In this document: one piece after another, positions 8,538 to 61,919 of the stretch
Position numbering within the stretch: the stretch's first letter is position 1
Layout of the letters: each line of letters begins with the position of its first letter
Origin: Parvibaculaceae bacterium
GTDB taxonomy: Bacteria > Pseudomonadota > Alphaproteobacteria > Parvibaculales > Parvibaculaceae
Direction of reading: 5' to 3'
NCBI GenBank assembly: GCA_029209985.1
Contig: JARGNZ010000008.1
Span: 67,054 to 131,053 of the forward strand
Length of the DNA: 64,000 nt
Position numbers and translations under genes: made by a program
The notes under the pieces: generated by a model
Databases searched by the model: none
Told to the model about the DNA's origin: nothing
The model's input: only the letters and a program-made list of their open reading frames with translations

Positions 8538-9050
8538 TTATGAGCCAGCCCGTGTGTTCACAACAGTCACACCGCGCCGGTTCTGAGACCAGCAAGTGGA
8601 GTTGGAGCACAAAGCAACCGGACGCTCTTTACCGTAAGAAATGGTACGAATGCGTGAAGGGTCAATGCCCTGCGCGACCATGTAGTTTTTGACAGAAGTT
8701 GCACGACGACCACCCAACGCAAGGTTATATTCGCGTGTGCCGCGCTCATCCGCATGACCTTCAACCAAAACAGTCACCGCAGAATTCAATTTCATCCAAG
8801 CCGCTTGGCGGTTCAGGCTGTTGCGCGCTTCTGGGCTTAGATCTGAACGATCTGTTGCGAAGAAAACACGGTCACCCACGTTTACAACCAAGTCCTGCTG
8901 AGAACCAGGAGTTGGGCCACTTGGCGCAGGCTCCACGGCTGCTGCAGATGTATTCACAGCTACTGTTTCTTCTGTTGTTGAACAGGCTGCGACACCCATC
9001 ATCAAAACTGCAACCGCCGCAAACCGGACCCCGGCATTAAGATACTTCAT
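8538..9050 (-). CDS. pal: Peptidoglycan-associated lipoprotein Pal
   Basis: Pal is an outer-membrane lipoprotein that binds peptidoglycan and TolB. From MKYLNAGVRF (complement of 9048-9050, with GGGAG upstream) the product is 170 aa. The signal peptide ends in a lipobox (GVAAC) with Cys about residue 23. A short Thr/Val/Pro linker leads to the OmpA-like domain: VEGHADERGTREYNLALGGR carries the Asp and Arg used to bind diaminopimelate. A Cys pair six residues apart lies in the CSNSTCWSQNRR segment. It has its own upstream region, separate from tolB. Confidence 0.97.
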   Translation of the reverse strand: MKYLNAGVRFAAVAVLMMGVAACSTTEETVAVNTSAAAVEPAPSGPTPGSQQDLVVNVGDRVFFATDRSDLSPEARNSLNRQAAWMKLNSAVTVLVEGHADERGTREYNLALGGRRATSVKNYMVAQGIDPSRIRTISYGKERPVALCSNSTCWSQNRRGVTVVNTRAGS

Positions 9051-9424
9051 CGAAGTGATCTCCCTTTTTTCACATGCAGCAGGCATCAGACCTCTGCCAT
9101 CAAACTATTTCACCAAACAACACGTCCCACTCCACACATCCGGTCGGTCAACCTTAGACGCAAAGCGAAGCATATGATCTGCCACCAAAGTGACAAAATA
9201 TTGTAAGGAAACAAATCACATTAAGTAACAAAGTGCAGATAAGCGCTCAACACCTTCTCAGTCCCTAATATCTGGCCTATTTCCTCAATTTAATCAAAGT
9301 ACAACGAACGTCTAAATTCATCGTGCCGGTGCCTTGAAGGGCCACCTTATCCGTCAGTTAAGCGATGCGTAAAGGGCAATCGAGCAAAAGGCTTAATAAG
9401 CCGCGATTTTCCTAATGCATCTAC
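9051..9424 (-). other. pal-tolB intergenic region
   Basis: This 374-base stretch has no convincing reading frame. It should hold the pal promoter on the minus strand. A small hairpin GGCTT-ATT-AAGCC with a following TTTT (9390-9402, read on the minus strand) lies 22 bases after tolB and could be a weak terminator. Confidence 0.5.
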
Positions 9425-10762
9425 CTACCGCAACAACGGCGACCAAGCCGGGTCTGAACCAAATGTTGGCGTATAAACAGGCCGCTCATTATAGCCCGTC
9501 ACATCCACCGACCAAAGACTAGGCCCGCCCTGCTCTCCGCGCGTTTCGCGGAAGAAGGTCAACACACGCCCATTTGGCGACCACGTTGGGCCTTCATTGT
9601 GATAGCCCTCAGTCAAAATCCGTTCTCCAGACCCATCCGGGCGCATCACCCCAATAAGGAACCGGCCTTTATACATCTTAGTAAAGGCAATCAAATCTCC
9701 GCGCGGCGACCAGATCGGCGTTGCATAACGCCCGTCGCCATAACTAATACGCTTAGGGTTAGACCCATCAGCCTGCATGACATAAATCTGCTGCGATCCT
9801 CCCCGGTCGGATTCAAACGTTATCTGCTTGCCATCAGGCGCATAAGAAGGAGCTGTATCAATAGCGGCCGTATTCGTTAGGCGCTGTGTCACACGACTGC
9901 GCAAATCCATTTCATAAATGTCGGAGTTACCACCCCGCTGTAAACTCATCGCAATTTTATTGCCATCCGGCGAGAACCGTGGCGCAAAGGTCATGCCGGG
10001 AAAATCTCCCACCACTTCTTGCTGCCCTGTCTCAATGTCGAGGAGATATACACGCGGCCTATTGCCGTAATATGACAGGTAGGTAATTTCTTGATTGCTC
10101 GGAGAGAACCGAGGCGTCAGCACCAAATCCGCCCCATTCGTCAGCATGCGTGGATTGTGCCCATCTTGGTCCATGATCGCCAAACGCTTAACCCGTCGGT
10201 TTTTAGGACCACTTTCAGCCACATAAACCACCCGTGTATCAAAGTAACCGCCCTCACCGGTGAGACGCGTATAGATCGCATCCGCAATAATATGCGACAC
10301 ACGGCGCCAATTATCCGGCGTGGTAAAAAACTGCAACCCTGTCACTTGGCTTTCGGAATAAACATCCCACAGACGAAATTCCACCTTCAGCCGACCATCA
10401 GCTTCCAGCTTCGATTGTCCCGTTACCAACGCTTGTGCATTGATCACCCGCCAGTCACCAAAACGCGGCTGCACATTCACATCAGCCACTTTTTCGATAA
10501 AGGAGGCTTTCGCCAACGGGCGGAACAAACCGGACCGCTCAAGATCTGCTGAAATAACTTTGGCAATATCGGCACCGATAGTGCTGTCTTGTGTACCGCT
10601 ACCGATAAAATCGGTCACTGCCAACGGCATCGGGTCCACATTGCCTTGTGTGATATCGATTTGCAGCGCGGCTTGTGTAGGCCCCACAAAGGACACCGCC
10701 ACCAATACAGCCAAAATCAACGCTTGGCTCATAGCTCTCACACTCGAAACACGCTGCATCAT
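9425..10762 (-). CDS. tolB: Tol-Pal translocation protein TolB
   Basis: TolB is a periplasmic beta-propeller that shuttles between Pal and TolA. The protein (445 aa) has a signal peptide ([18 protein letters not shown]), then the N-terminal domain with DFIGSG and [18 protein letters not shown]. The C-terminal propeller is made of repeated WD40-like PD40 blades such as [31 protein letters not shown] and [16 protein letters not shown]. Two adjacent ATG codons could start it. It is separated from tolA by 139 bases that contain an 11-bp inverted repeat. Confidence 0.97.
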
Positions 10763-10901: not shown

Positions 10902-11747
10902 TTAACGGCCCAGCATTTCACCCGGATCAAACCGCAAATCTAACTCCTGCCAACTGCGATACTTTGCCGGTGGCATCTGAAACGGCTGGCATTGGTCAAT
11001 CGCGCGCAGCGCACTTTCCGTTGCAGCCCGCAGATACCGATCCCCAGACAGCAGGCTCCCTTTGTTAACGATCTGAGTTGGTCGGGCAAGTGATCCATCA
11101 ATGTTGAGGTACACTTTCAACGACACAACCAACCGGCCTGCTTCTGGGGCACCAGCTGGAACGCTCCAACATCGACGCATCTGAACTTTGAAAGCATCAA
11201 TCTCAGAAACCGTCATCTCTGAGTTAGAACCCGCCGCCGCTGCAGGGGCCACCGTTTGAGACCGCGCAGGCTTTTTGGCAACTTTATCGTCAGGCTGTTT
11301 GTCCAACAAAGCGGCCAAAGACGAAGGATCGAAAGCTTTCTTCGCTTTCGCCTTCTTCACCGGCTTTTTCTTCACTGGTTTCGGCTTCGGCTCAACCTTG
11401 GGCTCTGGTTTTTTTTCTTCAACAACGGGCTCTGGCTCTGGCTCCGGTTCGGGAGCTGACGGCGCGGGAGGGGCAGCTTCAGGCTCAATAGCCGGAGCTG
11501 GAGGTTCCGGGGCTGGCACAGGTTCCGGCGCTGGCTCTTCTTCTGGCTCAGGCTCCACAACAGGTTCAGGCTCTGCCTCAGGTGTCGGCGTGCGCTTTAA
11601 GTTCGTAAACTCATCGATGGTCACAAGCTCAACAGGAAGCACCTTCTCGGCAACAGCAGGAAAAGGGTCCACTGAAGGCAACGCCACATACGCTGCCAAG
11701 AGAATGACAACGTGAAGACAAAATGAAACGATGAGCCCAATGCGCAT
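10902..11747 (-). CDS. tolA: Tol-Pal energy-transducing protein TolA
   Basis: TolA spans the periplasm and transmits proton-motive force from TolQR to Pal. The 281-aa protein has one N-terminal transmembrane helix (about residues 4-20). A long low-complexity rod follows, first Glu/Pro-rich with EPEP repeats (about residues 55-110) and then Lys/Pro-rich. The compact C-terminal domain runs from about residue 185 (FKVQMRRCWSVPAG) and carries the two conserved Cys of the TolA/TonB fold (RRCW and DQCQPF). The rod is much shorter than the Ala/Lys coiled coil of E. coli TolA. It lies 12 bases after tolR. Confidence 0.93.
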   Translation of the reverse strand: MRIGLIVSFCLHVVILLAAYVALPSVDPFPAVAEKVLPVELVTIDEFTNLKRTPTPEAEPEPVVEPEPEEEPAPEPVPAPEPPAPAIEPEAAPPAPSAPEPEPEPEPVVEEKKPEPKVEPKPKPVKKKPVKKAKAKKAFDPSSLAALLDKQPDDKVAKKPARSQTVAPAAAAGSNSEMTVSEIDAFKVQMRRCWSVPAGAPEAGRLVVSLKVYLNIDGSLARPTQIVNKGSLLSGDRYLRAATESALRAIDQCQPFQMPPAKYRSWQELDLRFDPGEMLGR

Positions 11748-11759
11748 ACTATCCAGCCG

Positions 11760-12230
11760 CTACTTGGTTTTCTTTGCCGCGTCACGCGGCGTCTCAGTCA
11801 CCAGTCCAACGCGAGAAAAACCCGCACTGGAAATCGTTCCCATCACATTCATGACTTCGCCGTACTGAATGACCTTATCTGCCCGCACATAAATGCGCTG
11901 ATCGTATCCATTCTCACCAATAGCCAATAAACGCGGCACCAGCTCTTGGGTTGTCACGACGGTTTCTTGCAAATAAATCTGCCCATCCGCCTGTAGCGTA
12001 ATGGTCAGCGGTTCATCATCCCCTTGCAAAGGGGGCGAAGTCGTTTGCGGCAAATCTACTGGCACGCCCACAGTCAGCAAAGGAGCCGCCACCATGAAGA
12101 TAATCAGCAGCACCAACATGACATCCACCATCGGCGTCACATTGATTTCGCTCATCGGTTGATGACGCCCCCCAGCACGACCACTGGAGCGCCCTCGGCC
12201 AGAAGAACCGCGCGACGTTGACATGCCCAT
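11760..12230 (-). CDS. tolR: Tol-Pal channel subunit TolR
   Basis: TolR forms the inner-membrane proton channel with TolQ. The single transmembrane helix follows EINVTPMVDVMLVLLIIFM, where Asp36 is the ion-binding acid of the ExbD/TolR family. The soluble part ends with a TolR-type domain (IYVRADKVIQYGEVMNVM). The first 25 residues are Ser/Arg/Gly-rich and cytoplasmic. It starts 3 bases after the tolQ stop, so coupling is likely. Confidence 0.96.
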   Translation of the reverse strand: MGMSTSRGSSGRGRSSGRAGGRHQPMSEINVTPMVDVMLVLLIIFMVAAPLLTVGVPVDLPQTTSPPLQGDDEPLTITLQADGQIYLQETVVTTQELVPRLLAIGENGYDQRIYVRADKVIQYGEVMNVMGTISSAGFSRVGLVTETPRDAAKKTK

Positions 12231-12233
12231 GGC

Positions 12234-12977
12234 TTAGCTCCGCTCATCAAGTTGGCGCGAAACAATGGCAGAAAATTCATCCGCAAAACCATCTAAGCGG
12301 GCCCCAAGGCGGGAGACTTCGCTAGAAAATTTATTATAAGCGACCACTGCAGGAATAGCAGCAAGCAGCCCAAGGGCCGTTGCAAACAACGCTTCCGCAA
12401 TCCCCGGTGCCACAACAGCCAAATTGGTATCGCGACTAATCGCAATCGCTTGGAAGGAATTCATAATCCCCCACACCGTCCCAAAAAGGCCAACAAACGG
12501 CGCAACCGAGCCAACTGTTGCCAAAAACAACAACCGGTTTTCCAACGCCAACATTTCACGCCCAATGGTGACACCCATCACTTTATCAATCCGCTCTTTT
12601 AGACCAGCAAAATGGGTTGTCATATCTGAGGAGCGTTTCCACTCACGCATGGCAGAGACAAAAAGCAGCGCCAGCGGATTACTGGGCCGCGCGCTCACTT
12701 CGTCAAAAATTTCATCTAAAGATTTGCCAGACCAGAACAAACGCTCAAAGGCATCAGCTTGCCGGTTCACCCGGCCAAAACGGATCCATTTTTCAAACAC
12801 AATGCCCCATGACCAAATAGAGGCAAAGATCAATCCAATCATCACGCTTTTCACGACCAAGTCAGCGCGCATAAACAACGACCACACTGTAAAATCAACA
12901 GCTGCGGCCGCAGCGTTCCCCCCGCCAATGCCAGCAGTGCCATCAGCGATAAGTTGGGTAGCTTGGGTGGGATCCAT
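12234..12977 (-). CDS. tolQ: Tol-Pal channel subunit TolQ
   Basis: TolQ is the multi-helix ExbB/MotA-type subunit of the Tol motor. The ATG at 12975-12977 is preceded by GAGAGG at good spacing, giving 247 aa; an earlier in-frame ATG lacks this. The first helix is around residues 35-55, and the conserved pair of helices includes LLFLATVGSVAPFVGLFGTV and IAEALFATALGLLAAIPAVV, with the family Thr/Gly/Pro pattern. It heads the tolQRAB run. Confidence 0.96.
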   Translation of the reverse strand: MDPTQATQLIADGTAGIGGGNAAAAAVDFTVWSLFMRADLVVKSVMIGLIFASIWSWGIVFEKWIRFGRVNRQADAFERLFWSGKSLDEIFDEVSARPSNPLALLFVSAMREWKRSSDMTTHFAGLKERIDKVMGVTIGREMLALENRLLFLATVGSVAPFVGLFGTVWGIMNSFQAIAISRDTNLAVVAPGIAEALFATALGLLAAIPAVVAYNKFSSEVSRLGARLDGFADEFSAIVSRQLDERS

Positions 12978-13278
12978 CAAGGCCTCTCTAAAAGCAAGTA
13001 TCGTCAAAAGTCATACGATCAAAGTCACAGCGTAAAATACACGAGCCCAAGAGCGCATTCTGGTTATCCATTAAGGCGTCAACGCGACGAGAAAACGACG
13101 AAAGAACGGTTTTCTCAAAAGCATTTACCCGCCTCAAACACCATAAGGTAGCTAGCCGATGAAATGTGGCCAAACTGGGGCACAATCACCTTGGCCAACC
13201 CGATTCATGTCACGCCCTCAAAGGTTTAGCAAAATGTTGTGTAGGAACCACACGTCCCGAACACCCGCCCAACGGCAC
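12978..13278. other. ybgC-tolQ intergenic region
   Basis: About 300 bases between the ybgC stop and the tolQ start. No gene, tRNA or clear hairpin was found. It presumably carries a tolQ promoter. Confidence 0.4.
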
Positions 13279-26365: not shown

Positions 26366-27076
26366 ATGAGCAAAAAATCTAAAAAATCTAAAACGCCGCC
26401 AAAGCCACTCAAAGAAGAAGTGAGAGAGCCCTGCCAGCTTTATCTCATCACCCCTCCGCGCTTTGAACCTGTGGGCTTTGGGGACACCCTTCGGGCCGCC
26501 CTAGACGCAGGCCCCGTTTCCTGCCTTCAACTCCGCCTCAAAAACGAAGATGAAAGCAAAATCGCTGCTGATGAAGTCAAAAAAGCCGCTGAAATCCTCA
26601 TGCCAATTGCCCACGAATATGATGTTGCTTTCTTGGTAAATGATGACCCGGTCCTTGCCCATGAGATAGGGGCTGACGGCGTTCACATCGGCCAAAAAGA
26701 CATGCCATACGCAGAAGCCCGCCAGATTGTGGGTGAGAACCAAATCGTCGGCGTTACCTGCCATGACCAACGCCACTTAGCGATGGAAGCAGGCGAAGCC
26801 GGTGCGGACTATGTTGCTTTTGGCGCCTTTCATCCTACTGTCACAAAACTCGCGTTGAGTGCCGCCGAACCCGATATTCTGACATGGTGGTCAGAACTTT
26901 TCGTGGTCCCGTGCGTCGCCATTGGCGGCATAACGACGGCAAATGCCGCACCTCTCGTAAAAGCGGGTGCAGACTTTCTTGCTGTGTCGTCCGGCGTATG
27001 GGGATTTGAACAGGGCCCTGCCGCTGCTGTAAAAGAGTTCGATCGGTTGTTGATCGAGGAAAGTAAAAACAGATGA
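26366..27076 (+). CDS. thiE: Thiamine-phosphate synthase (ThiE/TenI family)
   Basis: ThiE couples the pyrimidine and thiazole halves of thiamine. The 236-aa TIM-barrel protein has LQLRLKNED for the usual LRxK, LVNDDPVLAHEIGADGVHIG, the phosphate loop GVTCHDQRHLAMEAGEAGADYVAFG, and a C-terminal CVAIGGITTANAAPLVKAGADFLAV. A Lys/Pro-rich 20-residue N-terminal extension is present. Key ThiE positions look mostly kept, but TenI-type relatives are hard to separate by eye. The stop overlaps the next gene by 4 bases (ATGA). Confidence 0.8.
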   Translation: MSKKSKKSKTPPKPLKEEVREPCQLYLITPPRFEPVGFGDTLRAALDAGPVSCLQLRLKNEDESKIAADEVKKAAEILMPIAHEYDVAFLVNDDPVLAHEIGADGVHIGQKDMPYAEARQIVGENQIVGVTCHDQRHLAMEAGEAGADYVAFGAFHPTVTKLALSAAEPDILTWWSELFVVPCVAIGGITTANAAPLVKAGADFLAVSSGVWGFEQGPAAAVKEFDRLLIEESKNR

Positions 27077-28098
27077 ATAAAACCTTCGCCAATGCTCTCG
27101 CTGCCGCAGTGATCACCCTGCCACTCACTCTGATGTCAGGATCTGCCATGGCCGAAACCGCTTTTGAAGCAGCCGCGAAACTCTACGCCACACACCAATA
27201 CGAACTCGCCTTTGGCCGCGCCATGGAAGGCGCACAAGGCGGCGATACCAATGCACAATTATTGCTGGGCACCATGTACCTCAATGGAGAAGGGGTCGAA
27301 GCCAATGGCACTGAAGCGCTACGCTGGATCGAAGCCTCTGCGGAGAAAAACAATGCCTCCGCGCTCTACGCCCTCGGCGTGATCTATCGCGATGGCGCAA
27401 TCACCCTCCAAGACCTGGGCCGCGCCAGATCACTCATTGCCCGCGCCGCCGATCAACAACATACCGGGGCCGAATTTCTCTACGCACAGTTTTTAGCCAC
27501 CGGCACTGGCGGGAAGGCAGACCCCGAAACCTCCATTAAATATTATGAGCGCGCGGCCAAAGAAGGCCACCCCGACGCCCTCTATTCATTGGGAGCCATC
27601 TATGCCGCTGGCACAATACGGCCCCAAGACATGGCAAAAGCGGTCGACTACTTCCAAAAAGCTGCCGCTAAAAAACAACCCGACGCAGCCTTTAACATGG
27701 CCCAACTTAAACTCGATGGAACCCATGTCCCTCAAGATCGCGAGGGCGCAGCCAAATTGTTAGAAGTGGCTGCGAAAGAAGGTCTGGTAGAAGCACAGAC
27801 CTACCTCGGGCAACTCTATTTCAGTGGAGACGGCGTAACTCAGAGCGACGAAAAGGCTGTGATTTGGTTCGGCAAGGCAGCAGAAGCCGATGAACCCTTT
27901 GCTCAAGCCCGTCTCGCACGCATGTACGCCCTAGGGCGCGGTGTCGAGCAAGACCCACTCATGGCCTACACCTACTATCTGATTGCACGTAAAAACGGCT
28001 ACGATGACACACAACTTGGCGATCTGCTTTCCAGCGAGCTCACGCCCGAAAAAGTCGCACAAGCCGAAGCCCGCATGAAAAAATGGTTTAGCCAATAA
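27073..28098 (+). CDS. Secreted Sel1-repeat protein
   Basis: The 341-aa protein has a signal peptide (ALAAAVITLPLTLMSGSAMA, about residues 9-28) and then six or seven Sel1-like TPR units: GTMYLNGEGVEANGTEALRW, GVIYRDGAITLQDLGRARSL, GAIYAAGTIRPQDMAKAVDY, GQLYFSGDGVTQSDEKAVIW and ARMYALGRGVEQDPLMAYTY. Sel1 repeats mediate protein contacts; in alphaproteobacteria they occur in periplasmic regulators of polysaccharide or envelope processes. The partner is unknown. It is translationally coupled to thiE, but no functional link is evident. Confidence 0.85.
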   Translation: MNKTFANALAAAVITLPLTLMSGSAMAETAFEAAAKLYATHQYELAFGRAMEGAQGGDTNAQLLLGTMYLNGEGVEANGTEALRWIEASAEKNNASALYALGVIYRDGAITLQDLGRARSLIARAADQQHTGAEFLYAQFLATGTGGKADPETSIKYYERAAKEGHPDALYSLGAIYAAGTIRPQDMAKAVDYFQKAAAKKQPDAAFNMAQLKLDGTHVPQDREGAAKLLEVAAKEGLVEAQTYLGQLYFSGDGVTQSDEKAVIWFGKAAEADEPFAQARLARMYALGRGVEQDPLMAYTYYLIARKNGYDDTQLGDLLSSELTPEKVAQAEARMKKWFSQ

Positions 28099-28145: not shown

Positions 28146-28384
28146 GTTTTAAGCTCTAACACCCCTCCAAATTCGTCCATTTTGGCCCATTTGCGCCAAT
28201 AATCCTTCATTCGTTAGTGATTTGTTTGTGGAATGGTGCAGCAAATGCTATCAGAGCGGCCAAACCAGTTTTTGAGCTCCAAGGGAAGAGCGCGCCGCAA
28301 GGCTGCCTCTCTGCCTAAAGCCGACCTCAAATGCTCCGATCGCCAATTTATGATCACAATACGATCAAACCTGAGAGCAGAACC

Positions 28385-28948
28385 ATGAAGATCAACGGCA
28401 ATGAAATTCGTCCCGGCAATCTGATCGAGCATAAAGGGGGTCTTTGGGCCGCTGTGAAGCTCCAACACGTTAAGCCCGGCAAAGGCGGTGCATTTGCTCA
28501 GGTTGAACTAAAAAACCTTGTCGATGGCACAAAGCTCAACGAGCGTTTCAGATCATCAGAGACTGTTGAAAAAATTCGCCTCGAACAAGAAGAGTACCAA
28601 TATCTCTACGCTGAAGGCGACATGCTGGTATTCATGAATCAGAAAAATTACGAGCAAATCGAATTGCCTGCTGATTTCATTGGAGAGCGCGCGGCGTTTC
28701 TTCAAGACAATATGATTGTCACTCTAGAAACATATGAAGAACGCCCCATCGGCATTTCATTGCCAGATCACGTCACGCTCGAAATCACAGACACGGAGCC
28801 TGTTGTAAAAGGTCAAACAGCGACCTCTTCTTACAAGCCTGCGAAACTAGAAAATGGCTTGCGGGTTATGGTGCCGCCATTCATTGGCACAGGCGACAAA
28901 GTCATTGTCGATACCAATGAAGTCACCTATCTCAAACGGGCTGAATAG
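28385..28948 (+). CDS. efp: Elongation factor P
   Basis: EF-P relieves ribosome stalling at polyproline stretches. From [12 protein letters not shown] the protein is 187 aa with three beta-barrel domains. The tip loop KPGKGGAF places Lys33 at the position that is beta-lysylated in E. coli. Other blocks are [31 protein letters not shown] and [20 protein letters not shown]. An in-frame ATG 54 bases upstream is not supported by conservation. No EF-P modification gene lies in the window. Substrates in this window with Pro-rich stretches include TolA and the 30162-31508 product. Confidence 0.97.
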
Positions 28949-28990: not shown

Positions 28991-29806
28991 ATGCAGAATC
29001 TATCTCCCACTTTGACTGTCATGGTGAACGCCGCCCGCAAAGCCGCACGCGGCCTCCAACGGGACTTTGGCGAAGTCGAAAACCTCCAAGTTTCGATGAA
29101 GGGCCCCGGCGACTTTGTCTCAAGCGCGGACCTCAAAGCGGAAAAAATTCTACGCGAAGAGCTTCAAAAAGCACGCCCCGGCTACGGCATGTTACTTGAA
29201 GAAACCGGTGCGATTGAAGGCTCTGACAAGAGCCACCGTTGGATTGTTGATCCATTAGACGGCACCACAAACTTTCTGCACGGCATTCCACAATTCGCCA
29301 TTTCAATTGGCCTAGAGCGCCAAGGACAAATGGTTGCAGGCGTGGTCTACAACCCCGTCAGCGATGAAATGTTTATTGCCGAAAAAGGCCGTGGATCTTT
29401 CCTCAACAACCGCCGTTTGCGGGTCGCCAATCGCCGCGACATCAACCAAGCTGTTGTCTGCACCGGCATTCCCCACATGGGCCGTGGCAACCACCCCCAA
29501 GCACTGGCTGAATTGGCTGCTGTGATGCCCCACGTGGCGGGTATCCGACGCACCGGTTCTGCCGCACTCGACCTCTCCTATGTCGCTGCGGGACGTTTTG
29601 ACGGCTTCTGGGAAAGCGACCTTGCCCCATGGGATATGGCTGCAGGTCTCATCATCTTGCGCGAAGCAGGCGGGTTTGCCACAGACATCACAGGCGGCGA
29701 ACAGATTTTCAAAACAAAATCTGTTATCGCGACAAATGATATGCTGGCAAGGCCCTTGCTGGACCTCATTCGTAAAGGTCGCCGCTCAGCCCCAACCGCA
29801 AGCTAG
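28991..29806 (+). CDS. suhB: Inositol monophosphatase family protein (SuhB-like)
   Basis: This is a Mg-dependent sugar/inositol phosphatase of 271 aa. It has FVSSADLKAEKILREEL, LLEETG for the GEE motif, the metal site WIVDPLDGTTNFLHGIPQFA, and the second signature SDLAPWDMAAGLIILREAGG. SuhB also acts with the Nus complex on rRNA transcription in enterobacteria; whether that holds here is unknown. It lies 42 bases after efp, probably in one operon. Confidence 0.93.
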   Translation: MQNLSPTLTVMVNAARKAARGLQRDFGEVENLQVSMKGPGDFVSSADLKAEKILREELQKARPGYGMLLEETGAIEGSDKSHRWIVDPLDGTTNFLHGIPQFAISIGLERQGQMVAGVVYNPVSDEMFIAEKGRGSFLNNRRLRVANRRDINQAVVCTGIPHMGRGNHPQALAELAAVMPHVAGIRRTGSAALDLSYVAAGRFDGFWESDLAPWDMAAGLIILREAGGFATDITGGEQIFKTKSVIATNDMLARPLLDLIRKGRRSAPTAS

Positions 29807-29841
29807 TTCACAGAACCTCTTCGATAAAAATCAAATAGTTC

Positions 29842-29873
29842 TTACAGCCAAGCCGTCACACGCTTGGCTGTAA
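29842..29873 (+). terminator. Hairpin after suhB, probable terminator
   Basis: A perfect 12-bp stem TTACAGCCAAGC/GCTTGGCTGTAA has an 8-base loop, followed by the weak tail TCGTTTC. Confidence 0.7.
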
Positions 29874-30003
29874 TCGTTTCAGCACCCTAAAATGACCGTT
29901 TGTTTCGCCAGACCACACAGAATCGGATAAAAGCTTTATGCAAGGGGGAGAAATTTAGGATGCGATTTGATCGAATATACGCCACTATTAGGCTGTATTT
30001 CGG

Positions 30004-30165
30004 ATGAGTAACCAGCCTATTTCCTCACCCTCACCGACATATGCTGCAACGTCGACCAAAATCACGAACGATGCGCAGGAAGACCCGCAAACGCAGGACG
30101 CTTTTGCGGCGGATGGAACTGACAGGCAAACCGTGCCGAACGGCGCGAAATGCTGGATTAAATGA
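30004..30165 (+). CDS. Possible small ORF (53 aa) overlapping the next gene
   Basis: The frame reads MSNQPISSPSPTYAATS and so on to NGAKCWIK, with the stop TGA overlapping the ATG of the next gene by 4 bases. It has no hydrophobic segment and no recognisable family. There is no clear ribosome binding site, which argues against it, while the ATGA overlap argues for it. It could be a leader peptide for the downstream cluster. The rest of the 29807-30161 gap holds only the suhB hairpin and presumably a promoter. Confidence 0.3.
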   Translation: MSNQPISSPSPTYAATSTKITNDAQEDPQTQDAFAADGTDRQTVPNGAKCWIK

Positions 30166-31508
30166 GAACGATGAACGCCTTAGCAACGACATTGATACGG
30201 CTTAGCACCGCGAGCAGTCTTGTTCTTCTAGCCCTCCCTGTAACAACCGTTACGGTCAGCGCTAACCCTGTGAGCATTAATTGGGATGCCCTCGAGCAAG
30301 CAGGTCAAACCAACGCGCCCATCGTTTTGAATCCAAGTAAAGCAGAAGCCCCAACATCTTCTGCCCCGCAAAAAACAAAAACCTTCAAACTCACCGCGCC
30401 CAAACTACTCAACCCGAAAAACAAAACAGCCGGGGCAAGCCCTTCCCCCAAAGCGCGTCCGAGTAAAAAGCCTGAAGACCTACGCACATCTGATAGCCAG
30501 CCAACACGTGCCCCCCAACCCCCTGCTGTAAAACAAAAAGCGCCGACCACCGTATCAGCTCAAAAAAAGACACCCGTCAAAAAGACGACATCAGTCGCCA
30601 GCAAACCAACACCGCCTGCCACACCAAATGTGCCGTCATCGGACGCCGCAAACACAACAGCGCGGGCAGCCCCAACAAAACGCATCCCAACCAAATTACC
30701 TGCCGCACAAGCAACAGCAAAAAAGGCACCGGCACGCCGCCCAAGCCATGCGCAGACCATGCAGGAATATGCACACACGCTGTCCACCCCCCGCGCCCAA
30801 ACAGATGCCCATTGGGGGGCCGAGCCTAAAGATAAAATCCTCCCTGCAGCCCCCACGCAAAGCTTTGCCGTCGCCACCTTTGGTTCTGAAAAACGCGTGA
30901 AGACACCTCCATCAGCTCAAGCAATAGCGCCAACCTCCACGCCAGCCAAAGCAGCGACCAAACCGGCTCCACAAAAAGAGCCTCAACAGTCAGCAAGCGT
31001 GTCCCGCCCGCCCGCGCCCGCCCGCCCCGCAGAGGCCGCGCCAGCAAAACCAACAAAGCCCGCCGCGTCAATCATCGCCACAAGCCCCGCAGCACCACGC
31101 AGCGCTCCCGTCGATACATTTGAAGCAACAGCACGAGAACTGGCAGCGATTGAAGACGCCCCAAGTTCCCCCAAAACCTTGCGCTCTCCCGAACCTGCAG
31201 AAGGACGTATCGTGTTTGATGTAGATAGCGCGCAGCTCATGACCAGTGGCCGCTCAACACTTGCTGCGGTAGCTAAAAAGCTCAATCAAACAGCAGCCCG
31301 CATTCAACTCAAAGCCTATACCAGCCAAAGCACACTGACGTCCGTTTCAGCCCAGAGACGCCTCTCACTCAAACGCGCCATGGCTGTGCGACAACACCTA
31401 ACGACAGAATTTGGTATTTCCAGCAGCCGCATCGATGTGCGCGTGTTGGGCACCGTGGAAGACAGCGGTCCTGGCGACCGTGTTGATATTGTGATGACCT
31501 CAAGTTAA
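30162..31508 (+). CDS. Proline/alanine-rich secreted protein with OmpA-like C-terminus
   Basis: The 448-aa protein has a signal peptide (ASSLVLLALPVTTVTVSANP). About 300 residues of low-complexity Pro/Ala/Lys/Thr sequence follow, a likely extended periplasmic linker. The C-terminal domain is of OmpA/Pal type, starting at GRIVFDVDSAQLMTSG and containing RRLSLKRAMAVRQHL and SSSRIDVRVLG. The loop that normally holds the peptidoglycan-binding Asp (TD) reads YTSQSTLTS, so diaminopimelate binding may be lost or altered. It leads a three-gene set with MotA- and MotB-like proteins. A scaffold spanning the periplasm is inferred. Confidence 0.8.
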   Translation: MRTMNALATTLIRLSTASSLVLLALPVTTVTVSANPVSINWDALEQAGQTNAPIVLNPSKAEAPTSSAPQKTKTFKLTAPKLLNPKNKTAGASPSPKARPSKKPEDLRTSDSQPTRAPQPPAVKQKAPTTVSAQKKTPVKKTTSVASKPTPPATPNVPSSDAANTTARAAPTKRIPTKLPAAQATAKKAPARRPSHAQTMQEYAHTLSTPRAQTDAHWGAEPKDKILPAAPTQSFAVATFGSEKRVKTPPSAQAIAPTSTPAKAATKPAPQKEPQQSASVSRPPAPARPAEAAPAKPTKPAASIIATSPAAPRSAPVDTFEATARELAAIEDAPSSPKTLRSPEPAEGRIVFDVDSAQLMTSGRSTLAAVAKKLNQTAARIQLKAYTSQSTLTSVSAQRRLSLKRAMAVRQHLTTEFGISSSRIDVRVLGTVEDSGPGDRVDIVMTSS

Positions 31509-31544
31509 CAACAATGAAACAGAAACAAGGCGGAGAGTTTAGGC

Positions 31545-32483
31545 GTGGCAAAGGATTATTCAGACAGTTTCACCCTGTCCAAACCACGGGCTTATTTAAC
31601 CCGCATGGCGCTCTTCCTTACCCTTGTTGGGTTTTTATTGCTGATCCTTTATTCCAAATTGATCACGGCCTTTCTCGCAAACCCCGGCCTAAACGGGTTG
31701 ATCGTTTTTGTTTTGGTCATCGGCATCCTATATGCCGTCCGCCAAGTGTTCATGCTCAATCCAGAAATTAACTGGGTCAATTCCTTTCGTCGTGCCGACC
31801 CCGGCTTAGCCCTTCCCCCGCCTCCCCAATTGCTTGCGCCCATGGCCACCATGCTGGGCAATCGTCGAGGTCGAATGAACCTTTCGGCTCAAACCATGAC
31901 GTCATTGCTCGACTCCATCGGCTCCCGCCTAGACGAGCAACGCGAGATCTCACGCTATGCAATTGGACTGCTGGTTTTTCTGGGGCTGCTCGGCACCTTC
32001 TGGGGTCTTCTCTCCACCGTTGCCGCTGTCGGCGACACCATGCGCAGCCTGAACGTCGAAAGTACCGATAGCACCGCCGTGTTCACTGAACTGCGCGCAG
32101 GTTTAGAAGCGCCCCTTAAAGGCATGGGCACAGCCTTTTCCTCATCCCTCTTCGGCCTTGCAGGCTCTCTCGTTCTAGGTTTTCTAGATTTACAAGCAGG
32201 CCAAGCTCAAAATCGCTTCTACAATGAATTAGAAGAATGGATGGCAACAGTTACCGATGTTCTTGGCGAAAATGAAGCCCACGCGACCCCAGCAGCCGAG
32301 GCGGGCGTTGAGAGTGCGGCGGCGGCCAACACAGCCCTACTGGCACTCACCGGCCAAATTGCAGCCCTTACCGAGCAAATACAGCTTGAACAAGGCCTGT
32401 TACAGCAAGTGTCAGCAAATCAAACCCAGCTCAAACCAGCTCTTGAAAACTTGCTGATTGAACTTCAAAAACAACGCGACTAG
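31545..32483 (+). CDS. MotA/TolQ/ExbB-like inner-membrane channel protein
   Basis: The 312-aa protein starts at a GTG with GGAGAG upstream. Four hydrophobic segments are seen near residues 17-36, 48-70, 137-160 and 195-215. The third and fourth (IGLLVFLGLLGTFWGLLSTV and GMGTAFSSSLFGLAGSLVLG) match the conserved TolQ/ExbB/MotA channel helices, with the family Thr and Gly pattern. A C-terminal coiled coil (AALTEQIQLEQGLLQQV) follows. With the next gene it should form a proton-driven motor separate from Tol and from the flagellum. Confidence 0.85.
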   Translation: MAKDYSDSFTLSKPRAYLTRMALFLTLVGFLLLILYSKLITAFLANPGLNGLIVFVLVIGILYAVRQVFMLNPEINWVNSFRRADPGLALPPPPQLLAPMATMLGNRRGRMNLSAQTMTSLLDSIGSRLDEQREISRYAIGLLVFLGLLGTFWGLLSTVAAVGDTMRSLNVESTDSTAVFTELRAGLEAPLKGMGTAFSSSLFGLAGSLVLGFLDLQAGQAQNRFYNELEEWMATVTDVLGENEAHATPAAEAGVESAAAANTALLALTGQIAALTEQIQLEQGLLQQVSANQTQLKPALENLLIELQKQRD

Positions 32484-32497
32484 GCGGAGGCCCAGCT

Positions 32498-33517
32498 ATG
32501 GCGCTTTCACGCCGTCGGAAAAAGAACACCCCATCAGCTGACTATTGGCCGGGCTTCGTCGATGCCATGGCAACGCTGCTGCTCGTCCTCATTTTTCTGC
32601 TGTCCATCTTCATGCTCACCCAGTTTTTTCTCGCCAAAGCCATCACCGGAAAAGATTCTGCTCTGGAAGCCCTGCGCTCCCAGATGGCCGAACTCACCAG
32701 CCTTTTGGCCCTAGAAAAACGCGAGAACGCCAGCCTTCAAGCCACCATATTTTCGCTTAACGATGACATTGCAAACGCCGAAACTGAAAAGGCAAGACTC
32801 AGCGCCCTTTTGGCAGAGGGTGCGGGATCAGGGGATCAGCTCGCCAGCTTACAAGCAGACTTAGACAAAGAGCGGAAAGTCTCCGCCCAAGCACTTGCCC
32901 AAATTGAATTGGTCAACCAACAGCTCGCAGCCCTGCGCCGTCAACTTGCCACTTTAGAAAAAGCCCTCGAAGCGTCCGAAGCAAAAGACCGCGAAAGCCA
33001 AGCTCAAATTGCAGACTTGGGCAAACGCCTCAACAAAGCATTGGCACGCAAAGTACAAGAGCTTGCCCGCTATAGGTCAGAGTTTTTTGGCCGCCTCCGC
33101 TCTATCCTTGGTAACCGCACCGACATTGAAGTTGTCGGAGACCGCTTTGTCTTCCAGTCTGAACTATTCTTCTCCTCCGGGTCAGCTCAAGTCAGCGCTG
33201 CCGGCCAAAAAGATCTCAGAAAAATTGCCGTCGCCCTGCGCGAAATCGCAACACAAATTCCAGAAGACGTGAATTGGATTTTACGTGTGGATGGTCACTC
33301 AGATGCAGCCCCCATCAACACCCCGGAATTTCCGTCCAACTGGCACCTGTCCGCAGGGCGCGCCATTTCAGTGGTGGAATTTCTCGTCGCCAATGGCGTA
33401 CCGGCAAACAGATTGGTTGCCGCTGGCTTTGGGGCCTATCAGCCGCTTTCACCGCAAAAGTCAGCAGAGGCGTATAAACGCAATCGGCGGATCGAGTTCA
33501 AACTCACCCAAAGGTAA
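32498..33517 (+). CDS. MotB-like peptidoglycan-binding protein
   Basis: This 339-aa protein has one transmembrane helix (about residues 21-46). It starts with YWPGFVDAMATLLLVLIFLL, where Asp22 is in the place of the proton-carrying Asp of MotB. A long coiled coil (about 50-195, many Leu heptads) is followed by an OmpA domain with the peptidoglycan motif VDGHSDAAPI and LSAGRAISVVEFL. No flagellar genes are nearby, and the long coil differs from MotB. It starts 14 bases after the MotA-like gene with GGAGG-type spacing, so the pair is cotranscribed. Confidence 0.88.
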   Translation: MALSRRRKKNTPSADYWPGFVDAMATLLLVLIFLLSIFMLTQFFLAKAITGKDSALEALRSQMAELTSLLALEKRENASLQATIFSLNDDIANAETEKARLSALLAEGAGSGDQLASLQADLDKERKVSAQALAQIELVNQQLAALRRQLATLEKALEASEAKDRESQAQIADLGKRLNKALARKVQELARYRSEFFGRLRSILGNRTDIEVVGDRFVFQSELFFSSGSAQVSAAGQKDLRKIAVALREIATQIPEDVNWILRVDGHSDAAPINTPEFPSNWHLSAGRAISVVEFLVANGVPANRLVAAGFGAYQPLSPQKSAEAYKRNRRIEFKLTQR

Positions 33518-33565
33518 GTCCGACCTCCATCCGCCGATGATCACACTCAATGGCACCTTGGTGCC

Positions 33566-34666
33566 CTATTGAGGCAACGCCTGTGGCATGTCACACGCCA
33601 AGACACGCGGGTCAAACACAGCACCAACCAACATCGTATCTTTATAAGACGCCGCGACACTAGACGCTGAAAGCTCTTGTCCCTCATTCAGGTAAATTGT
33701 ACCCGCAGCACCACCTTGTCCCTCAGCTCCCGGCACCACCAAAAGCACTTGGCTTGGGGCAAAGATATTTTGATCTCCTGCATGTTCCAGAAAATCCAAA
33801 ATCCGAATATGCGCGCCAATCAGCAAAGCCCCATCCGCACGCACATCGATATTATCAACGCCAGTACCAAGGTCCACAATTTCACTCAGCGCCAAAGCAC
33901 CCGTTTCAATCGTGCGGTCATAAATGCGCAGCGTGCGGTCGAGGGTTTCTGCCACGTAAAGCGTCTCACCATCCCCGCTCACATTCACACCATTGGTCAT
34001 GGTCAAACCATCTGCGGCAACGGATGCTTTTTCGCCATCCCAATAAATCAAATCAGCGGCATCCCACGCCATAAATGTTTCAAGCTGCCGCACCAATGCA
34101 CCGCTCGTCCCATAATCGTTCCCCACATAGAAGGCGTCATGGCTCACAGGCACAAGGTCATTCGGCGACGTAATCAAGGGATCCTCAATAGACGTTCTAT
34201 GCGCCAACATACCGTCCGCCAACACGTCAAACACTTCGATCACTTGACGTCCATCAGAAGGATGGCTGGCAGCAATGAGTGTGCGCCGCCCCGTTGGCCC
34301 AACATAAAGCCCAATACCATGCGGACGAAAATCTAGGGGCGCTTGCGGGGTCACATTCCACAAAGCCCATTCAGCCCGTGGCTTGTTCAAATCTATGCCG
34401 TAGATACCGCCCCGGATCGCATCCGTCCCAGGCCCTCCCGCGGCCACTTTCCGCCGATCATAGGCTGAAACATAGGCAATGCCGCGCTCTCTATCGACCA
34501 AAATATCCTCTGGTCCCGGCACAGCCTCAATAACGGTGCAATTTGCATCAATGTTTTCCGGCAACGCCGTAAAGGCACCTGCCCCCGACAATGTTTGAAA
34601 CACATAGAAACTAATGAGGGTCAACACCACAACGATTGGCAGTGCGATTTTCATACTTGTGGACAT
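33566..34666 (-). CDS. Paraoxonase/SMP-30-like beta-propeller protein
   Basis: The 366-aa protein has an N-terminal signal anchor (IALPIVVVLTLISFYVFQTL) and then a six-bladed propeller. Segments that recall serum paraoxonase and gluconolactonases are GPEDILVDRERGIAYVSAYD, FRPHGIGLYV, SPNDLVPVSHDAFYVGND (the Asn-Asp pair that binds catalytic calcium in paraoxonase), TNGVNVSGDGETLYVAETLD and VDNIDVRADG. Lactonase or arylesterase activity in the periplasm is inferred. It lies 92 bases after the ABC exporter and converges on the MotB-like gene. Confidence 0.75.
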   Translation of the reverse strand: MSTSMKIALPIVVVLTLISFYVFQTLSGAGAFTALPENIDANCTVIEAVPGPEDILVDRERGIAYVSAYDRRKVAAGGPGTDAIRGGIYGIDLNKPRAEWALWNVTPQAPLDFRPHGIGLYVGPTGRRTLIAASHPSDGRQVIEVFDVLADGMLAHRTSIEDPLITSPNDLVPVSHDAFYVGNDYGTSGALVRQLETFMAWDAADLIYWDGEKASVAADGLTMTNGVNVSGDGETLYVAETLDRTLRIYDRTIETGALALSEIVDLGTGVDNIDVRADGALLIGAHIRILDFLEHAGDQNIFAPSQVLLVVPGAEGQGGAAGTIYLNEGQELSASSVAASYKDTMLVGAVFDPRVLACDMPQALPQ

Positions 34667-60571: not shown

Positions 60572-61414
60572 TTAGTCCATCGATACGACAGCACGACGGT
60601 TAAGAGGTTCGCGTACACCGTCACCGGTAGATACTGCGAGATCGCTCTCACCATATGTTGACGCGCTAGATACAGTTGCGTTTTGTGCACTAAGAGCACC
60701 AGCAACTGAGTTAGCACGACGCTGACCAAGACCTTTGTTGTAAGCTGCGCTACCGGACGTATCCGTGTAACCAGCAACAGACAAGGAAGAGCTGCCAACT
60801 GAAGAGGCAATCTCATCAACCACAGCTTGCGCTGCAGATGTCAGGTTGAACTTGTTGTATCCGAAGTAAATAGTCCAAGGACCCATTTTCTTCGCTTCAC
60901 ATTCTGTAAGCGCTTCATAGAAAGCAGCTTTTTCGGCTTCTGCGCGGTTTGGTTGAACTGGACCACCGGCGCCACCAAAATGAGAGCCTTCAACGCCCCA
61001 TTTGTTGTCGCTAGCTTGTTCTACCCAACCATCGTAGTAGCGCTGAGCTTTAGCACATGCACAAGCACGATCGCCTTCACGACCGCCATTGTCCAAAGCA
61101 GCCATCAGGCGCGAACGCCCAGATTGCAGCTCGCCAAGATCAGATGCTAGAACACCGTGGTTTGCCGGATCGTATGGCAACACGGTTTCACCAGCAGCAG
61201 CAGCGCGACCTTTTTTCACGATTGCAGCGGTATCAACCCAGTTGCAATCTACATAGGCTTCGGACGTTGCCCGATCCTGATATTCCCGAGCAAGACACGC
61301 GTTAAACGTGTCGCCAGAAATAGTTTCTTCTAGATACGATTCTGCATGCCAGGTGCCGCAAGCTGCTAGCCCTAGAAATGCCCCCATCGCAATCAGCCGG
61401 GATAGTATTTTCAT
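60572..61414 (-). CDS. OmpA-like outer-membrane lipoprotein
   Basis: From MKILSRLIAMGAFLGLAACG (GGAGA upstream) the product is 280 aa with a lipobox at residues 16-19, so it is a lipoprotein. The N-terminal 160 residues are unfamiliar and hold four Cys (in NACLAREY, VDCNW and CACAKAQRYYDGW). The C-terminal domain from about 185 is OmpA-type: VAGYTDTSGSAAYNKGLGQR with the peptidoglycan Asp and Arg, and NRRAVVSMD at the end. It likely ties the outer membrane to peptidoglycan. Monocistronic. Confidence 0.88.
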   Translation of the reverse strand: MKILSRLIAMGAFLGLAACGTWHAESYLEETISGDTFNACLAREYQDRATSEAYVDCNWVDTAAIVKKGRAAAAGETVLPYDPANHGVLASDLGELQSGRSRLMAALDNGGREGDRACACAKAQRYYDGWVEQASDNKWGVEGSHFGGAGGPVQPNRAEAEKAAFYEALTECEAKKMGPWTIYFGYNKFNLTSAAQAVVDEIASSVGSSSLSVAGYTDTSGSAAYNKGLGQRRANSVAGALSAQNATVSSASTYGESDLAVSTGDGVREPLNRRAVVSMD

Positions 61415-61919
61415 CCCAATCTCCGTCATAAGCTTTTTCGACTAACCACTACCCCTCGCGAGTAGCAGCCCGGACCCCACGGGTTCGCCTTATCCCTTCA
61501 TAGATCGCATAGATCAATCTATTGCATCAATGAAAAACGTCTGAACTTCACCGTTTAGACCTAATGAGTCACTTCACCGCAACACTTCTAATCCAACAAA
61601 ATCAATTAATTAGCGGCTCCCGACCATAATTTACGAGAATCCCCTAAAGAAGTGTGACTTTTTTATGCATCTGCCAAAAACAACATCATTTTAATACTAA
61701 AACCTCGCACTTATGTTTGAAACGTATTTTACCTGCCTCTTTCTTTCTTCAAACCACTGCTTGTCCACAATGAGACACTTTCGGCCCCAAGAAGGTAAAT
61801 CCCTTAAACTCGTCTTTACCTGTCTGCATCATTATGACCCAAACCCGGCACGTGCCGGATGGGGGATTAAAAGGTGCGTGGCGCAACCCACACACATTGT
61901 TGGTAGAGGTTAATAGGGT
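61415..61919. other. Divergent region between the OmpA lipoprotein and the sigma-54 activator
   Basis: A 505-base A/T-rich stretch with promoters for two divergent genes. It contains a perfect 14-bp palindrome at 61845-61858. No gene is convincing. Confidence 0.45.
61845..61858. promoter_or_regulatory. Perfect 14-bp palindrome CCGGCACGTGCCGG
   Basis: It lies 61 bases before the ATG of the response regulator. A dyad of this type and place suggests a dimeric regulator binding site, or an RNA hairpin in the leader; it has no T tail, so it is not a terminator. Confidence 0.6.

Follow-up and report, generated by a model that had tools for sequence, protein, structure and literature searches.

Two adjacent genes of a Parvibaculaceae bacterium probably encode the A and B subunits of a proton-driven rotary stator, with an inferred stoichiometry of 5 A : 2 B, that belongs to the division of stators formed by Zor, Sii and PRK09039-type proteins and serves Alphaproteobacteria as a housekeeping motor of the cell wall. 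The genes lie in a 64,000 nt stretch of DNA, here called the window, which corresponds to positions 67,054 to 131,053 of contig JARGNZ010000008.1 (assembly GCA_029209985.1). A preliminary description, made from the sequence alone, had placed three consecutive genes at 30162-33517, and three intact open reading frames (ORFs) on the same strand were found exactly there. Gene 1 (30162..31508, +) encodes a 448 amino acid (aa) long, Pro/Ala-rich secreted protein with an OmpA-like C-terminal domain that we call P1, gene 2 (31545..32483, +) encodes the MotA/ZorA-like A subunit of 312 aa and has a GTG start, and gene 3 (32498..33517, +) encodes the MotB-like B subunit of 339 aa, a member of the PRK09039 family. 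The intergenic gaps are 36 bp between genes 1 and 2 and 14 bp between genes 2 and 3. The characters that had been ascribed to the three products, namely a secreted Pro/Ala-rich protein with an OmpA-like end, a MotA/TolQ-like channel protein and a MotB-like protein, were all recovered, for gene 2 through a weak Pfam match and a clearer one to ZorA3.

Over its whole length (residues 1-339 on positions 1-343 of a 343-position profile), the B subunit matched the NCBIfam model NF006544 (PRK09039) with 454.5 bits, compared with a cut-off of 362. The PRK09039 models (NF006542-NF006546) carry the name 'peptidoglycan -binding protein', and the record covers one protein and is silent on any motor, partner, mechanism or function. 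B has a single transmembrane helix (TM) that carries Asp22 (32561..32563, +), the presumed proton-carrying residue, which is Asp in 78/78 aligned sequences. The segment directly after the TM is strongly conserved and could act as a plug; a MotB_plug domain (PF13677) was absent from genes 2 and 3 in the Pfam scan. The AlphaFold2 model, with a mean predicted local distance difference test score (pLDDT) of 79, has helices at residues 18-107 and 112-204 followed by the wall domain, and predicts a long periplasmic helix or coiled coil at residues 46-204 (32633..33109, +) with a break at 108-111. This coiled coil comprises ~155 residues and would measure ~23 nm if straight. Its length varies widely across the family, one relative possessing a B ORF of 798 aa (L268:6330-8726), more than twice that of the window. 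The C-terminal OmpA domain (residues 224-330; 33167..33487, +) was identified as PF00691 with an E value of 9.4e-17, its wall-binding site H267, D269 and R288 is conserved in 78/78 sequences at each position, and its fold matched MotS, MotB and Pal in Foldseek searches, with most of the matches to MotB or MotS. No TolR/ExbD-type domain was detected in B by Pfam at E <= 0.1.

The AlphaFold2 model of the A subunit (pLDDT 84) contains helices at residues 15-34, 47-69, 115-168 and 176-236 and a tail helix at 256-311. TM3 (residues 136-168; 31950..32048, +), within the third of these helices, carries the channel motif GLLGTFWGL, of which the core GLLGTF is invariant in 77/77 family members, and TM4, at approximately residues 190-218 (32112..32198, +) within the fourth, reads PLxGMGTAFSSSLFGLAGSL and has P190, F198, S201, G204, L205 and G212 invariant in 77/77. 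A TM Asp in B and a conserved TM3/TM4 core in A are general hallmarks of 5:2 stators, and the channel residues that the preliminary description had expected to be conserved, Asp22 and the pattern of helices 3 and 4, were so throughout the alignments. The helical C-terminal tail predicted by the model (residues 256-311; 32310..32477, +) is assigned to the cytoplasm by homology; it is at least 110 aa long in 50/77 family members and ends in many of them with an EIKLLARTIA-type motif (36/77 by one regular expression). In profile comparisons, A gave a partial match to the PADLOC model of ZorA3 (E 5.3e-13), no match to TolQ (TIGR02796) at E <= 0.1 and, like gene 3, no MotA_N domain (PF20560) in the Pfam scan. 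The first PDB entry retrieved with the A model by Foldseek was ZorA (8vvn, E 4.5e-3), followed by ExbB, TolQ and MotA, while PDB sequences searched with the A alignment gave only coiled-coil or helical matches that we took for chance.

The kinship of the A subunit was further explored in a tree of 69 sequences (13 of 82 rows were left out, 5 because they were long, gappy or doubtful and 8 mainly for thinning), in which the PRK09039-partner family, ZorA and Sii-like proteins were separated from TolQ/ExbB and flagellar MotA with a support of 100/100. The A family of the window did not form one clade in the free tree, and a single clade was not rejected (p value of the approximately unbiased test, p-AU, 0.586). 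Judged by its sequence, A is a ZorA/SiiB-type and not a TolQ-type protein, and we regard the ancestry that it shares with ZorA as kinship, not as membership of a Zorya system. The A-family profile also recovered ten ZorA-like and three Sii-like loci. Two of the three Sii-like loci contain ABC and HlyD genes according to Pfam, and one of these an OEP gene as well. Upstream of the ZorA-like genes, one gene was examined (L256) and found to encode DUF3348, which is ZorF of Zorya III according to the accessible part of PMC11890865. These ten loci (L256-L265) hold a ZorA3/ZorB3-like pair in ten genomes of a few families outside the Alphaproteobacteria, with a possible role in defence.

The A and B genes are adjacent in 76/77 loci, locus L128 being the sole exception, and are separated by a median of 5 bp; P1 lies directly upstream of A at a median distance of 48.5 bp (64 loci; the 'P1' match of L128 is the B subunit itself and was excluded from the P1 counts). 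Within the order, all three genes occur together in 17/17 loci, and the gene order thiE-efp-suhB-P1-A-B is found in 16/17, the remaining locus being a 3.9 kb contig. The 60 loci from the class, approximately one per family and drawn from the best-scoring matches listed among 260 positive genomes, contain A in 59, suhB in 48, P1 in 47, efp in 43 and thiE in 34 cases, and several of them end at contig edges; because weak and distant lineages are under-represented in this sample, the adjacency figures lean high. The co-occurrence of the trio expected by the preliminary description thus holds for A and B, usually behind efp-suhB, but not for P1, which is missing from 13/60 class loci. In Sinorhizobium meliloti Ak57, the locus consists of thiE, Sel1, suhB, A and B, lacks P1 and is annotated with a 'MotA/TolQ/ExbB proton channel family protein' for A and a 'peptidoglycan -binding protein' for B. 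Since the pair is kept at loci such as this one where P1 is missing, A and B are a stable unit and P1 is a frequent companion.

P1 begins with a signal-peptide-like segment (residues 1-34; 30162..30263, +), recognized by inspection from hydrophobic residues 7-34 followed by VSA/NP, and it lacks a lipobox because there is no Cys at the putative end of the signal peptide. No further hydrophobic segment is present. The mature protein would start with VSINWDAL (30270..30293, +), an instance of a motif VxVNLxxL that occurs in 30/49 P1 proteins of at least 180 aa (shuffled mean 0.3), and 20/49 show the form IGG..VxVN (shuffled mean 0.03); in many relatives this start peptide has what we presume could be a resemblance to a TonB box. 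The middle region is composed of 21% Ala and 16% Pro. The C-terminal domain (residues 352-431; 31215..31454, +) is PF00691 with an E value of 4.1e-12 and fails the His/Asp signature GH(T/S)D of peptidoglycan-binding OmpA domains, while the Arg of LSxxRA is present. Across 65 P1 sequences the canonical Asp is kept in 3/65, the His in 0/65, its position being occupied by Tyr, Phe or Ala in 65/65, and the Arg in 65/65. In OmpA domains, the Asp binds diaminopimelate. The accessible part of PMC11890865 reports that mutations of ZorB including H186 and R203 disrupt wall binding; we take these as the corresponding positions, and P1 therefore probably does not bind the wall in the standard manner. P1 is only ~145 aa long in several members of the order and hence need not span the periplasm. 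In a neighbouring genus, an additional OmpA gene resembling P1 precedes a short P1 in two members (L040:4129-4929, 266 aa; L047:7802-8647, 281 aa), an apparent duplication within the locus.

The B family was detected in 37/40 genomes of the order, the three others being 57-83% complete, and in 260/387 sampled genomes of the class at E <= 1e-40. Among the matches listed, which amount to at least 80 loci, Tepidicaulis marinus is the nearest named relative (69% over the A subunit), and others come from Stappia, Roseibium, Bradyrhizobium, Nitrobacter, Hyphomicrobium, Acidisoma and Kordiimonas. In a sample of the phylum, the A profile matched 107/348 genomes at E <= 1e-10. Of these, 18 lie outside the class and comprise 6 strong matches from three families, 2 that are Sii-like by gene context and 10 weak ones with long ZorA-like ORFs; five of the six strong outside-class loci were inspected, and neither efp nor suhB stood beside the pair in any of the five. 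Reduced genomes with a B gene (0.7-1.6 Mb) also kept a TolQ/ExbB-type gene in 20/20 cases, in a set chosen for carrying B and with the type of A gene judged from score and length, and so the two seem not to be interchangeable. No flagellar MotA-type match was listed in 16/20 of these genomes. That the pair is retained beside a TolQ/ExbB-type gene and mostly without flagellar MotA speaks for a function distinct from those of Tol and of the flagellum, but many further reduced genomes in the class do without it. No match was found in 50,697 phage records, and the five matches in plasmid records, each of 3.5-4.6 Mb and all from Rhizobiaceae, are probably chromosomes filed as plasmids.

A working model can be drawn from ZorAB and MotAB. 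ZorAB is a 5:2 complex that needs ion flow, wall binding by ZorB and the ZorA tail, as described in the available text of PMC11890865. By analogy, proton flow past the two Asp22 residues of the B dimer would drive rotation of the surrounding A pentamer. Since the OmpA domain and the long coiled coil would hold B on the wall, motion would fall to the A ring and its cytoplasmic tail, and the state of the wall would be translated into movement or a signal at the cytoplasmic face. P1 would act as an optional regulator, soluble in the periplasm, and would contact B, the wall or a partner in the outer membrane by way of its altered OmpA-like domain and its conserved start peptide. Envelope growth or wall upkeep is the most likely process served, as suggested by the conserved housekeeping location and the retention of the pair in some reduced genomes. 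A fuller version is offered more tentatively: the wall-anchored B dimer might serve as a stationary axle and the A ring, together with its conserved cytoplasmic tail, as a rotor that reports the wall state to, or drives, the growth machinery, Zorya and SiiAB might be specialised relatives of this housekeeping motor, and P1 might be a family-specific, non-standard OmpA-like regulator.

Several observations weigh against a wall-anchored housekeeping stator. The match of A to the Pfam family MotA/TolQ/ExbB reached 16.9 bits and stayed below the cut-off of 22.9, and the A model had no PDB match at E <= 0.001. The tail of A is short in the order of the window (in the window itself, 80 aa follow Trp232) and almost nil in two class loci (12 and 16 aa). 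B was absent at E <= 1e-40 from 127/387 class genomes, reduced ones included, and is therefore not universally needed. The usual distance from the inner membrane to the wall looks shorter than the length of the B coiled coil, which complicates the anchoring geometry. Finally, the open-access literature yielded no study, expression or essentiality data on a PRK09039-type pair, in a search that left subscription journals, preprints and supplementary tables mostly outside, so that essentiality data may well exist.

The preliminary description had proposed a Tol-like layout next to the normal Tol set. That set is indeed present in the window, with Pal at 8538-9086, TolB at 9425-10762, a TolA-like protein at 10902-11747 (37.1 bits, below the NCBIfam cut-off), TolR at 11760-12230 and TolQ at 12234-13007, and the conservation of the A-B pair and of the channel residues gives good support to an extra proton-driven envelope stator beside it. 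The Tol-like layout is not supported: A groups with ZorA and SiiB, B gave no TolR-type match in Pfam, and P1 does not qualify as a TolA-like transducer or as a standard Pal, since it has no extra hydrophobic segment, is missing from part of the class loci and has lost the Asp and His. A force transducer of this type, in which P1 would transmit the pull of the motor to the outer membrane in the way that TolA and Pal do for TolQR, would agree with a secreted protein encoded immediately upstream that is sometimes long and Pro/Ala-rich and has an OmpA-like end, but we consider it unlikely given a P1 that has no hydrophobic segment beyond the signal peptide, is absent from S. meliloti and elsewhere and can be very short, as well as the position of A away from TolQ. 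An auxiliary motor driving secretion or transport through the envelope, as SiiAB does with a type I secretion system, is suggested by the close relationship of SiiB-like A subunits and by the ABC and HlyD genes at the Sii-like loci; it is improbable for the window, where the conserved neighbours are efp, suhB and thiE and where no secretion genes were found in the conserved neighbourhood of the PRK09039 family (window, order and class loci, S. meliloti). B could also be a wall tether or wall sensor without proton conduction, in line with the intact wall-binding domain, the long coiled coil and the possible plug, yet a mere tether would not need the fully conserved Asp22 and the invariant TM3/TM4 core, and we give this explanation little credit.

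The absence of flagellar genes, which the preliminary description had used to set the trio apart, stands at most for the annotated ORFs of the window and fails for the genome. The latter, 99.8% complete, has two ExbB-type and two flagellar-type MotA genes; fliF, fliG, flhA and a motA-type gene lie on the window's own contig (C12) at ~7-16 kb, the window starting at 67054, and a motA-motB pair lies on contig C10. As the genome is flagellated, this argument is unusable, and it is the sequence classification that separates the trio from flagellar stators. An additional flagellar stator, with which the flagellated genome would agree, or, given that ZorA3 and ZorB3 were the best defence-model scores of the subunits, a phage-defence system would be very improbable. 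The flagellar pair of this genome contains both MotA_N and MotB_plug, which genes 2 and 3 lack, and most of the reduced genomes with B had no flagellar MotA-type match listed. Against a defence system stand the fixed housekeeping location, the missing matches in phage records and the scores of A with the NCBIfam ZorA models, which were 14.6 bits (cut-off 100) and 14.5 bits (cut-off 500) and thus missed both cut-offs; no Zorya effector genes (ZorC/D, ZorE, ZorF/G) were adjacent in the window or the order loci.

Upstream of the trio, the conserved neighbours are a thiE-like gene (26366..27076, +; named from the annotation of relatives, 'thiamine phosphate synthase' in S. meliloti), a Sel1-repeat protein kept mainly within the order (27073..28098, +; Pfam and order loci), efp (28331..28948, +) and a suhB-type inositol monophosphatase gene (28991..29806, +), the last two identified by Pfam and from order and class loci. 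A convergent SMP-30/arylesterase-like gene closes the locus (33566..34666, -; Pfam and order loci). A promoter scan of 29600-33700 gave one site, at 29864, a count not above the shuffled mean of 1.7. In one genome of the class, a Sii-like B-A pair accompanied by an ABC transporter and an HlyD gene lies within a few hundred bases of efp (L253:4140-7716), possibly a replacement at the same site or a coincidence. A further OmpA-domain protein of 285 aa is encoded far from the trio (60572-61429, -).

Among candidates from the literature, the Rgs growth factors of S. meliloti showed no link, the accessible text of PMC7327166 naming eight of them (RgsB-H, RgsS) with no mention of OmpA/TolQ-like proteins, and Agrobacterium atu2682, taken from the available part of a transposon sequencing paper on LD-transpeptidases, is an unrelated Bax-inhibitor gene. 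Text searches of the accessible CenKR paper returned no mention of OmpA, MotA, MotB, ExbB, efp or 'proton channel', and those of the accessible DalA paper returned OmpA and no MotA, MotB, ExbB or 'proton channel'. A 2025 list of proton-driven pentamer:dimer motors comprises, in the available text of PMC12204202, the flagellar, gliding, Tol, Ton, Zorya and Sii systems and does not name the PRK09039-type pair, although B occurs in 260/387 class genomes. A second publication of 2025, a survey, states in its accessible part that non-flagellar B subunits show no OmpA homology (PMC12505986), to which the PRK09039 B subunits are a clear exception. If the housekeeping stator works in the manner proposed here, a wall-coupled motor would operate in this class, where the understanding of envelope growth is still partial, and Zorya would stand beside housekeeping relatives.

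In comparison with known systems, the pair appears, from the sequence relationships, to be related to the motors of phage defence (Zorya) and adhesin secretion (Sii) rather than to Tol. It shares with ZorAB the A/B stator pair, the OmpA domain on B, the helical A tail and the side of the A tree, and differs by a much shorter A tail, the long coiled coil of B, the lack of ZorC/D/E/F/G and the fixed housekeeping locus. SiiAB, listed among proton-driven motors in the available text of PMC12204202, falls on the same side of the A tree and has a B subunit with a MotB/OmpA-like end, but type I secretion genes are not found beside the window pair. With Tol-Pal, the system has in common the proton-driven A/B kind of stator, whereas its A belongs to the other division, its B has an OmpA instead of a TolR domain, TolA is lacking and P1 is optional. 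Flagellar MotAB resembles it in a B subunit with a TM Asp and an OmpA domain, the wall-domain folds being mostly of the MotB/MotS type, and differs in that the window pair lacks MotA_N and MotB_plug and its A stands apart on the tree.

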